From contig NZ_AOJG01000017.1 of NCBI RefSeq assembly GCF_000337375.1, positions 1-64,000 of the forward strand: DNA of 64,000 nt. Reading direction: 5' to 3'. The DNA is from Halorubrum lipolyticum DSM 21995. GTDB taxonomy: Archaea > Halobacteriota > Halobacteria > Halobacteriales > Haloferacaceae. This document shows positions 29,220-54,956 of the stretch, in pieces (positions within the stretch are counted from its first letter, which is position 1; every line of letters starts with the position of its first letter). Made by a program: the position numbers and the translations under genes. The notes below the pieces were generated by a model that saw only the letters and a list, made by a program, of their open reading frames with translations, searched no databases and was not told the DNA's origin.

Positions 29220-29971
29220 GCCGCTTCGGCCGGATCGCGACCGAGGCGAGCGCGGCGTCGAGATCGTTCCTCCGGCGGCGGACGGCGGTGTTCTTCACCT
29301 TCTTTTTCCCCGTCATCCTCGTGCTGATCTTCGGCGCGCTGGTCCAGACGCAGCCGACCGGGGGCGGGCTGTTCGCGGAGCCCGCCGGCTACTACATCCC
29401 CGGCTACCTCGCCGTCGTCGTCCTCTTCACGCCGCTGTCGCGGGTCGGCTCCGAGATCGCTCGCCACCGCGACGGCGGGCGGTTCGAGAAGCTGGCGACG
29501 ACGCCGCTCTCCCGCGGCGAGTGGCTGCTCGCGCACACCTTAGTCAACGTCGCGATCATCGGCGCGGCGAGCCTGCTCATCCTCGGCCTCGTCCTGGTCG
29601 TGACCGACGCGGAACCGGTGGTCTCGCCCGCGCTCGCGGCGCTGCCGGTCTTCGTCGCCGTCGCCGTCGCGCTCTTCTGCGGGCTCGGGGCACTGCTCGG
29701 CGCGCTCGCGGACTCGCAGGACGGCGTGATCGCCGCGAGCAACACGGTCGCGCTCCCCCTGCTGTTCCTCTCCGAGACGTTCGTCTCGCCCTCGCTGCTG
29801 CCGGAGTGGTTCCTCCCGGCTGTCGCGGCCTCGCCGCTGACGTACTTCGCGCGCGGGACGCGGTCGATCGTCTACGAGCCGGGGCCGTGGGTCGGCGATC
29901 TGGCGGTGCTCTCGGTCCTCGCCGTCGCGTTCCTCGCGCTGGGGGCGTACGCGGTCCCGCGGACGGATTGA
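29216..29971 (+). CDS. ABC-2 type transporter permease
   Basis: A 251-residue membrane protein with six helices, for example TAVFFTFFFPVILVLIFGAL and NVAIIGAASLLILGLVLVVT. It has the ABC-2 hallmark region IARHRDGGRFEKLATTPLSRG between helices two and three. Its start overlaps the ATPase gene, so they form an exporter pair. A 24-base tandem repeat starts at its stop codon and fills the space up to the next promoter. Confidence 0.9.
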   Translation: MSRFGRIATEASAASRSFLRRRTAVFFTFFFPVILVLIFGALVQTQPTGGGLFAEPAGYYIPGYLAVVVLFTPLSRVGSEIARHRDGGRFEKLATTPLSRGEWLLAHTLVNVAIIGAASLLILGLVLVVTDAEPVVSPALAALPVFVAVAVALFCGLGALLGALADSQDGVIAASNTVALPLLFLSETFVSPSLLPEWFLPAVAASPLTYFARGTRSIVYEPGPWVGDLAVLSVLAVAFLALGAYAVPRTD

Positions 29972-30062
29972 GGGGCGAGACGGCGGGAGGATCGAGGGGC
30001 GAGACGGCGGGAGGATCGAGGGGCGAGACGGCGGGAGGATCGAGGGGCGAGACGGCGGGAGA
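29970..30062. repeat. 24-base tandem repeat (about 3.9 copies)
   Basis: GAGGGGCGAGACGGCGGGAG plus GATC repeats at 29970, 29994, 30018 and 30042, the last copy incomplete. It starts on the last two bases of the permease stop codon and ends before the next promoter. The copies are identical, which implies recent expansion. It is not in a translated frame. Confidence 0.93.
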
Positions 30063-30263: not shown

Positions 30264-30336
30264 CGACTGTACTGTCGATATGCGGGTGAGTTTGTACTCG
30301 ATCGTTTATATGTGATCGACAGCTCTGCGGTGACCA

Positions 30337-30654
30337 CCTCCAAAGCCCCAGCCGCTTTCTTATAAATCGCTGACATCGGGGCGACGACGAAAACCTCCAA
30401 AGCCCCAGCCGCGAGGCGGGCGCACGCTCGCTGCGCGCTTCAGTCGCTCGCGCTGCTCGCTCCTTCTAGTGCTTACGTCGCCTGCGCCCGCCTCGCGGCT
30501 GCCCCTTTGAGTCCCACCCGACCGCAACCGCACACCGCCTCACACCTCCCCAGCCTCGTCAGTCGCCCTCCGCGTTGCTCCGGGCGACTGACTTCCCTCG
30601 TGCGGGCTGCTCGCGCCCTGATGGGCGCTCGCAGGCGCACGCCACCGCACCGCA
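30337..30654 (+). repeat. Dispersed structured intergenic repeat, copy A
   Basis: The 417-base gap 30264-30680 has no gene and is mostly this element. It begins with CCTCCAAAGCCCCAGCCG (30337-30354), then CTTTCTTATAAAT, then the same 18-mer again at 30394-30411. An 18-base perfect inverted repeat follows (arms 30407-30424 and 30483-30500), then CCCCTTTGAGTCCCACCC, CCTCACACCTCCCCAGCCTC, a second hairpin (arms 30558-30568 and 30582-30592), and the end CGCCACCGCAC. Copy B at 54481-54808, in reverse orientation, has the same blocks in the same order with different loop sequences. It may be a non-autonomous mobile element or a structured RNA. Confidence 0.85.
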
Positions 30655-30680
30655 AGTCGTTTATAACTATTCGTCTGCGT

Positions 30681-31892
30681 TCATGACAGAATCTCGACCT
30701 CGTACCCGTCGGCTTCGAGGGCGTCGACGATGTCGGCGGCGTGTTCGGCGTCGTCGGTCTCTAATTCGAGTTCCAGTTCGGCGGCGTTGACGGCCACGTC
30801 CCGCGACGTGCGGTCGTGGTGGACCGCGTACACGTTCGCGCCGGTGCGGGCGACGATGCTGGAGACGCGCTCTAGCTCTCCGGGACGGTCCTTCAGGTCG
30901 ATCGTGATCTTGAGGTATCGACCCATCTGGACCAGTCCGCGCCGGATCACGGTCCCGAGCCGGTTGAGGTCGATGTTGCCGCCGCAGAGCGCGGCGACGA
31001 TCGTCTCGTCGTCGTCGTATTTAAACGCGTCCGAGAGGACGGCCGCGAGCGCGACCGCGCCGGCGCCCTCGACGAGCGTCTTCGAGCGCTCCAAGAGGAG
31101 GGTGAGCGCGAGGGCGATCTCGCGGTCGTCGACCGTGACGACCTCGTCGACGTACGCCGACATCACCTCGAGGGTCTGCTCGCCGACCGACCGAGTGGCG
31201 ATCCCGTCGGCGATCGTGTCGACGCTGTCGATCTCGTGGACCTCACCTTTTTTTAGCGACTCGCCCGCGGAGGCCGCGCCCTCGGCCTGCACGCCGACGA
31301 CCCGCACGTCCGGGAGCTGTTCTTTGATCGCGACCGCGACGCCCGAGATGAGCCCGCCGCCGCCGATCGGGACGACGACCGTGTCGAGGTCGGGGCAGTC
31401 GTCGACGATCTCGAGGCCGAGCGTCCCCTGCCCGGCCATCACCACGGGATCGTCGAACGCGTGGACGTAGGTCCGGCCCTCCTCGCGCTCGAGCCGGTGC
31501 GCGTACGCCTGCGCCTCGTCGTAGTCGACGCCCTCCAGCCGGACGCTGGCGCCGTATCCTCGGGTGGCCTTCACCTTCGAGACGGGCGCGAACTTCGGCA
31601 TCACGACGGTGGCGTCGACGCCCGCGCGGTCGGCCGCGAGCGCGACGCCCTGCGCGTGGTTGCCCGCGCTCGCGGTGACCACGCCGGCCTCGCGCTCGGC
31701 GTCCGAGAGCGTGGCGATCCGGTTCATCGCCCCGCGGATCTTGAACGCCCCGGTGCGCTGGAAGTTCTCCAGCTTGAGGTGCACGTCCGCACCGCTCATC
31801 TCGGAGAAGGTCCGCGACCGCTCCAAGGGCGTGTGCCGGGCGGCGTCGCCGACGCGCTCGCGCGCCTCGCGAACGTCGGAGAGGGTGATCAT
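30681..31892 (-). CDS. ilvA: Threonine ammonia-lyase (threonine dehydratase)
   Basis: A 403-residue PLP enzyme that makes 2-oxobutanoate for isoleucine synthesis. The PLP lysine lies in KLENFQRTGAFKIRGAMNRI; VTASAGNHAQGVALAA binds substrate, and the glycine loop VVPIGGGGLISGVAVAI binds the PLP phosphate. Residues ~325-403 form an ACT domain (YLKITIDLKDRPGELERVSS), suggesting allosteric control as in short catabolic or biosynthetic forms. Downstream it borders repeat copy A; upstream lies an 11-base tandem repeat. Confidence 0.93.
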   Translation of the reverse strand: MITLSDVREARERVGDAARHTPLERSRTFSEMSGADVHLKLENFQRTGAFKIRGAMNRIATLSDAEREAGVVTASAGNHAQGVALAADRAGVDATVVMPKFAPVSKVKATRGYGASVRLEGVDYDEAQAYAHRLEREEGRTYVHAFDDPVVMAGQGTLGLEIVDDCPDLDTVVVPIGGGGLISGVAVAIKEQLPDVRVVGVQAEGAASAGESLKKGEVHEIDSVDTIADGIATRSVGEQTLEVMSAYVDEVVTVDDREIALALTLLLERSKTLVEGAGAVALAAVLSDAFKYDDDETIVAALCGGNIDLNRLGTVIRRGLVQMGRYLKITIDLKDRPGELERVSSIVARTGANVYAVHHDRTSRDVAVNAAELELELETDDAEHAADIVDALEADGYEVEILS

Positions 31893-54470: not shown

Positions 54471-54480
54471 GCGACGTCCG

Positions 54481-54808
54481 TGCCGTGCGGTGGCGCGCCC
54501 CGGTGCGAGGGAGTCGCGAGCAGAGAGGGACCTCCAGTCCCTCATGCAGCCGGCGCGCAGCGCCGGCGACGAAGCGAGCGACGAGGCTGGGGAGGCGTGA
54601 GGTGCGGTTGCAGTGCGGATGGGTGGGACTCAAAGGGGCAGTCGCCGGCGGCTGCGCCGCCGGCTTCCAGAGGCGCGAAGCGTCTCGCTGCCGCGAGGAC
54701 GAAGCACGGCGCAGCAAGCCGCGCGAGTCGTCGACGGCTGGGGCTTTGGAGGAATTCGTCGTCGGTACGCTATCAACTATTTATAAGTAAGCGGCTGGGG
54801 CGTTGGAG
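54481..54808 (-). repeat. Dispersed structured intergenic repeat, copy B (inverted relative to copy A)
   Basis: The 516-base gap 54471-54986 holds no gene. Read on the minus strand, this element shows the same ordered blocks as copy A: CTCCAACGCCCCAGCCG (54792-54808), TTACTTATAAATA, CCTCCAAAGCCCCAGCCG, a hairpin region (palindrome GCCGGCGGCTGCGCCGCCGG), CCCCTTTGAGTCCCACCC, CCTCACGCCTCCCCAGCCTC, a second GC-rich hairpin and the end CGCCACCGCAC. A third, decayed copy of the first unit lies further upstream at 54834-54871. Confidence 0.85.
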
Positions 54809-54956
54809 CTCTCACCATTGATCCGCCAGTTACGATTTATAAGCAAACGGCTGAAAACTCGGAGACATCCCGCGGGACCAGCACCGAGGTGGAAACCCAA
54901 CCCCGAACATCGATCCGACACCGACCGTTCCGGAAGCCCCCGTCCGGTTGTTACAG

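Follow-up and report, generated by a model that had tools for sequence, protein, structure and literature searches.

Bacterial REP/BIME and ERIC repeats are dispersed, intergenic and palindromic, and are present in many copies per genome. In the haloarchaea, the palindrome-associated transposable elements (PATEs) of Haloquadratum lack terminal inverted repeats and target duplications and reach some 180-190 copies per genome (PMC3119063), and the Halorubrum virus HF2 carries intergenic repeats of ~58 bp with the AT-rich promoter motifs TCTTTAAGTC and CGTCTNNTAGAG (PMC8707807). Here we describe a dispersed element of Halorubrum, flagged in a 64,000-nt stretch of DNA (the window), which has the ends of a mini-transposon and a folded core whose first hairpin recurs across the class.

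The element and its copies in Halorubrum

The flagged 318 bp (30337-30654, copy A) lie between two convergent genes, one of them ilvA and the other a small predicted gene whose end is at 30264, and correspond to the core only, the complete element being longer on both sides. The blocks named in the original prediction, a doubled 18-mer around a TATA-like core followed by hairpins and further conserved motifs, are all present (30337-30354, 30394-30411, 30502-30519, 30538-30557 and 30640-30650). The features of the two copies are listed below, assigned from the sequence unless another basis is given.

30273..30294 (+): possible decayed 5' inner terminal repeat, tentative (consensus TGATCGATAGCGGGAGTAGGTAT)
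30305..30310 (+): TATA-like hexamer of the first promoter-like unit, 32 nt 5' of the first 18-mer
30337..30354 (+): first 18-mer block, CCTCCAAAGCCCCAGCCG
30360..30367 (+): second promoter-like unit, with TTATAAAT core (57-bp tandem unit)
30394..30411 (+): second 18-mer block, opening hairpin 1
30398..30509 (+): hairpin 1, the class-wide module, with arms 30398-30427 and 30480-30509 (covariation and distribution)
30502..30519 (+): conserved block CCCCTTTGAGTCCCACCC
30538..30557 (+): conserved block CCTCACACCTCCCCAGCCTC, a Halorubrum-type extension found at 2 of the 35 non-Halorubrum loci
30558..30592 (+): hairpin 2, GTCAGTCGCC (30558-30567) with GGCGACTGAC (30583-30592), arms perfectly complementary
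30600..30640 (+): hairpin 3, GTGCG (30600-30604) with CGCAC (30636-30640), inner GCGCCC/GGGCGC
30640..30650 (+): 3' block CGCCACCGCAC
30660..30666 (+): second TATA-like site, directly past the 3' block
30681..31892 (-): ilvA (threonine dehydratase), convergent with copy A and the anchor for orthologous copies
54479..54809, approximate (-): copy B of the same element (block matches)

Hairpin 1 of copy A is built from a CAAAG/CTTTG basal helix, a CCCC internal loop and a long covarying stem. The 18-bp inverted repeat reported for it (30407-30424 with 30483-30500) is perfect, and sits within a pair of 30-nt arms that are 87% complementary. The second copy predicted in the window was confirmed on the minus strand, with 18-mers at 54792-54809 (2 mismatches) and 54735-54752, and blocks at 54621-54638 and 54583-54602. 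Comparison with dinucleotide shuffles of the window gave 4 observed versus 0.05 expected occurrences for the 18-mer, 3 versus 0.00 for CCTCACNCCTCCCCAGCCTC and 2 versus 0.05 for CCCCTTTGAGTCCCACCC. Elsewhere in the window, at 29959-30054, a 24-bp repeat, GCGGGAGGATCGAGGGGCGAGACG, occurs four times head to tail at the stop of an ABC-transporter permease gene.

Across this genome, the 18-mer was matched at 172 places with up to 3 mismatches (31 for the reversed-pattern control), and GCTGCCCCTTTGAGTCCC at 85 places with up to 1 mismatch (0 for the reversed control). The locus is not merely an old duplication, the reading reserved for two copies without covariation, as about 85 copies exist and their arms covary. 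Among 46 sampled Halorubrum genomes, 43 hold 2 to 171 copies of the GCTGCCCCTTTGAGTCCC block, and named matches to the block with its CCCACCC tail came exclusively from Halorubrum. A few Halorubrum genomes are down at 0 to 7 copies, indicating that the element is dispensable there.

The anatomy of the element was analysed in 1.2 Mb of the genome, consisting of the window and pieces picked for containing copies, in which 86 copies retain at least two blocks. The blocks follow a fixed order (18-mer, CCCCTTTGAGTCCC, CCTCAC-CCTCCCCAGCCTC, CGCCACCGCAC), from which a few copies with extra partial matches deviate. A TATA-like hexamer is located 28-46 nt 5' of 81 of the 105 18-mers, mostly at 31-35 nt, against an intergenic background of 3.4%, and in 42 of 55 copies a further TATA-like site is found no more than 20 nt from the 3' block. 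The hairpin arms of five copies enclose short, perfectly palindromic sequences, among them GCCGGCGGCTTCGCCGCCGGC and GAGGGACCTTCGGTCCCTC, in varying combinations that resemble small mobile palindromic units. Eight contigs of this assembly end within ~250 bp of a copy, and two copies contain a stretch duplicated around an N; the element thus probably breaks short-read assembly. A possible strand polarity of the copies along the chromosome was dropped, the complete list for one genome being mixed.

Transposon ends, age and core retention

The complete element is ~590 bp long. Its termini are inverted repeats of 16 bp, GGCTCTGTTGAAATCC, and the target is duplicated over 8 bp. Some copies also have an inverted repeat farther in, TGATCGATAGCGGGAGTAGGTAT, on either side, with GGCTCTGTTGAAATCC outside it. 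Three core-bearing complete copies were found in three species: L225 (588 bp), whose terminal repeats are both perfect (16/16), L203 (590 bp) and L228 (657 bp), each with a target duplication of 7/8. Two further core-bearing copies have duplications of 6/8, and five other candidate copies show 0-5 mismatches in the terminal inverted repeats. The listing of open reading frames revealed no transposase gene and no conserved reading frame in the complete element, which is too short for a transposase. Comparison of 25 sites with a 5-copy relative, G013, revealed empty or remnant sites with homology continuing past the reported ends, and the same presence/absence pattern at orthologous sites was observed in G248 and others. 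The paired ends and target duplications of the complete copies identify the element as a mini-transposon, and together with the empty sites they demonstrate that it has moved; that it is a transposon-derived repeat is very likely. In G013, degraded core remnants were detected at several orthologous positions, including sites matching three of the mapped copies, indicating that its low copy number reflects loss at those sites and not primary absence.

The 16-bp terminal inverted repeats are missing from both copy A and copy B. In copy A the remaining 3' transposon end is absent beyond the second TATA-like site, TGTCGATATGCGGGTGAGTTTG (30273..30294) fits the intact-copy consensus only with a gap, and the copy falls outside the set with a recognisable inner repeat. 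Copy A is most likely an old, end-trimmed copy of a non-autonomous, MITE-like DNA transposon that multiplied in Halorubrum. One reading offered originally, a family of folded mobile elements, is borne out by compensatory arm changes and empty sites as well as by the inverted repeats at the termini and the 8-bp duplications of the target; neither the ends of the transposon nor the hairpin module shared across the class had been noticed.

An autonomous version with the core inside was looked for and not found. The identical 16-bp left end precedes genes for 276-aa IS5-family transposases (DDE_Tnp_1; NCBIfam IS5_2) in nearly all loci examined; these genes begin 43 bp inside the left end, and one coincides with the annotated ISHla2 in a plasmid record of Hrr. 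lacusprofundi. The identity was established for the left end of the autonomous element, and we therefore infer the mobiliser: an ISHla2-type IS5-family transposase likely acts on the mini-transposon in trans. IS6 and IS1595 transposases were rejected as mobilisers, as no paired 16-bp ends were found around these genes at the loci examined.

Ends of the GGCTCTGTTGAAATCC type with mostly perfect 8-bp duplications also bound other transposase-less haloarchaeal units. Eight such units with 8-bp duplications carry host-type passenger genes, encoding an Mrr-type restriction endonuclease, a TrmB-type regulator, a lipoprotein and small membrane proteins. The left-end sequence occurs in 79 plasmid records and the right-end sequence in 41, by name nearly all haloarchaeal. 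The 16-bp ends mark a wider set of transposase-less units with host-type genes in many haloarchaea.

The pairwise identity of the copies in this genome has a median of 75.5% and a maximum of 94.8% (alignments >200 bp), and by this measure most copies are old. No recognisable inner repeat was detected on either side of 48 of 67 copies. In 98% of these end-less copies, the first three core blocks are each matched with no more than 2 mismatches, a conservation that is inflated by the collection of copies through block similarity, yet the mismatches cluster at 0-1 where 3-4 were permitted. At the ilvA site, the element occupies one conserved place in the same orientation in 23 of 30 species, with usually 105-135 nt between the block and the ilvA stop, and the blocks remain intact at sites where the identity of ilvA drops to 89% and the neighbour on the far side is not the same.

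Covariation and the class-wide hairpin module

The hairpin arms were originally described as variable yet paired, and analysis of hairpin 1 revealed the compensatory changes that this entails. In 62 copies, hairpin 1 is ~90% paired, compared with ~53% when arms were shuffled between copies, and its first seven stem pairs are 81-94% paired, compared with ~51-70%. The 62 copies contain 58 distinct arms, with G-C, C-G and A-T pairs all common, and the stems of the ilvA-site orthologs show the same covarying tendency. A class-wide alignment of 27 distinct rows was assembled from the basal helix, a twelve-pair stem and the 3' block, with loops swapped for a fixed linker. In this alignment 95.9% of cells pair, a count favoured by the choice of hairpin partner partly by pairing; both partners have changed in 12 of 12 stem pairs, and covariation scores 0.655, versus 0.131 when shuffled and <0.1 when slid. 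Since the arms change together, the fold appears to matter, and this covariation, along with block retention, establishes structural constraint on the core.

The module has the consensus (G/C)AAAG-CCCC-stem-GCCCC-TTT(C/G)-AGTCCC(A/G)CCC. A search that allowed both spellings detected its block in 204 of the 292 haloarchaeal genomes, representing 55 of 77 genera, and gave 0 control matches; genomes of the phylum outside the class gave two single matches only. Outside Halorubrum, TTTCAG stands for TTTGAG and GAAAG for CAAAG, corresponding to a compensatory swap of the outermost pair. The apparent restriction of the module to Halorubrum arose from matching the TTTGAG spelling and gave way to a class-wide distribution once TTTCAG was admitted.

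At 35 loci outside Halorubrum, transposon ends and TATA-like units were each detected in 0 of 35 and a CCTCCCCAGCC-type block in 2 of 35. The module is multi-copy there, and its occurrence without ends or TATA-like units indicates that it is older and more widespread than the mini-transposon. At these loci it lies mostly in tandem or divergent gaps, whereas the Halorubrum copies favour convergent gaps, a difference in context that fits no single cis role. A predicted start codon is often 75-115 nt off on the GAAAG side, with the G-rich strand as sense, a lead provided by a simple gene caller. In seven non-Halorubrum loci, two modules are arranged head to head, ~20-25 nt apart, several of these pairs lying between divergent genes.

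Searches with Rfam 15 covariance models at gathering score gave no match for the window element or for the module at 18 loci in several genera. No description of the module was found in the literature searched, where most subscription-journal papers were missing, and it seems to be undescribed so far. A fold present in most genera, often in tens of copies, and with nearly complete compensatory change in its stem would rank among the class's most abundant conserved structured elements. A literature match on CTTTCAGTCCC was to an unrelated CRISPR repeat.

RNA under selection tolerates G-U pairs. Isolated mismatches in the predicted stems, read on the C-rich strand, comprise 65 A.C and 31 G.T. 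The commonest basal stem types are AGCCG/CGGCT (122 copies), AGTCG/CGACT (57) and the intermediate AGCCG/CGACT (38), which is a G-U pair only on the G-rich strand; the C-rich-strand T.G form is not among them. These counts, which are explained in part by base composition and include 38 intermediate copies that are not independent, argue against the C-rich strand, on which the original prediction was read, as a selected RNA, and fit either the G-rich strand or DNA.

Explanations and comparison with known systems

The best explanation overall, and in our judgement a probable one, is that an IS5-type mini-transposon captured a class-wide structured module in Halorubrum, and that the module has been kept because of its fold. 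The mini-transposon would have multiplied the module in Halorubrum, after which the transposon ends wore away and the folded core stayed. The end-less copies would have been retained because the folded module serves the cell, either as an RNA, with the G-rich strand the likelier one, or as a DNA site that folds at the borders of genes. Taken by itself, retention of the core for its fold is somewhat favoured, and RNA, the other reading offered originally, may be the selected molecule, a point on which we have some doubt. The element would thus provide a test case for a transposon that spreads a structured element outlasting the decay of the transposon ends.

A more specific reading, on which we are more doubtful, is that hairpin 1 represents a class-wide structured-element family of the Halobacteria acting through the G-rich strand, GGGYGGGACTSAAAGGGG-hairpin-GGGG, as an RNA or as a quadruplex-hairpin junction, and multiplied in a Halorubrum mini-transposon with promoter-like units. 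In the quadruplex variant, the structure may consist of four near-invariant G-tracts plus the hairpin, favoured by molar intracellular potassium.

A purely selfish mini-transposon, whose blocks and fold serve nothing but its own movement and whose conservation stems from gene conversion or successive rounds of amplification among the copies, would likewise have terminal repeats and target duplications, and a copy number both high and variable; the nearest ortholog at the ilvA site (80.7%) is no closer than the best own-genome paralog (83%). This reading is unlikely, since the copies are old and diverse yet retain the core blocks after losing their ends, gene conversion should homogenise the hairpin arms too, nearly all of which differ, and the module is multi-copy outside Halorubrum without these ends.

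The module could instead act in cis at gene borders, as a bidirectional terminator, insulator or mRNA-end structure, and outside Halorubrum possibly as an upstream regulatory site. Convergent gaps hold 45 of the 86 copies in the 1.2 Mb, where convergent pairs account for 215 of 1097 gene pairs (20%) according to a simple home-made gene caller, and both the fixed position 3' of ilvA and the many modules upstream of predicted starts in other genera are consistent with such a role. However, insertions are least harmful in convergent gaps anyway, copy orientation in tandem gaps is nearly balanced (18 same and 12 opposite to the neighbours), and contexts vary among genera whose genes were called by the same home-made caller, making a cis role rather unlikely.

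A trans-acting small-RNA family, with transcription on the C-rich strand running from the TATA-like units across all three hairpins, would account for the fixed 31-35 nt spacing of the TATA-like hexamers from the 18-mer, the stable predicted fold and the covariation, but is improbable given the lack of TATA-like units at all 35 loci outside Halorubrum, the lack of G-U enrichment on the C-rich strand and the 38 basal intermediates that read C.A on it. Unselected pairing, maintained by template switching from arm to arm at replication (palindrome correction), is compatible with the long, nearly perfect stems and with mismatches that lack a strong strand bias given base composition, but leaves the near-invariant single-stranded blocks and the class-wide persistence unexplained, and is the least probable of these readings.

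Compared with known systems, the element is close in the size of its 57-bp TATA unit to the HF2 repeats, but the motifs TCTTTAAGTC and CGTCTNNTAGAG do not match it. A viral origin was rejected on this difference, no exact match being found in viral contigs and no significant match in a phage collection. Like PATEs, the element is short, hairpin-rich, devoid of transposase and dispersed in haloarchaea, but its terminal inverted repeats and target duplication exclude a PATE or IS200-IS605 derivative. It is dispersed, intergenic, palindromic and present in many copies per genome like REP/BIME and ERIC repeats, but differs from them in that its stem sequence is hypervariable, with only the pairing and the flanking blocks kept. 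With MITEs and non-autonomous derivatives of IS5-family (ISHla2-type) elements it shares terminal inverted repeats identical over 16 bp to the left end of the IS5-family elements, 8-bp target duplications, the absence of a transposase and a multi-copy state. Unlike these, the element described here combines tandem TATA-like units with a core of three hairpins that persists after its ends are lost, and passenger genes are found in related units that have its ends.
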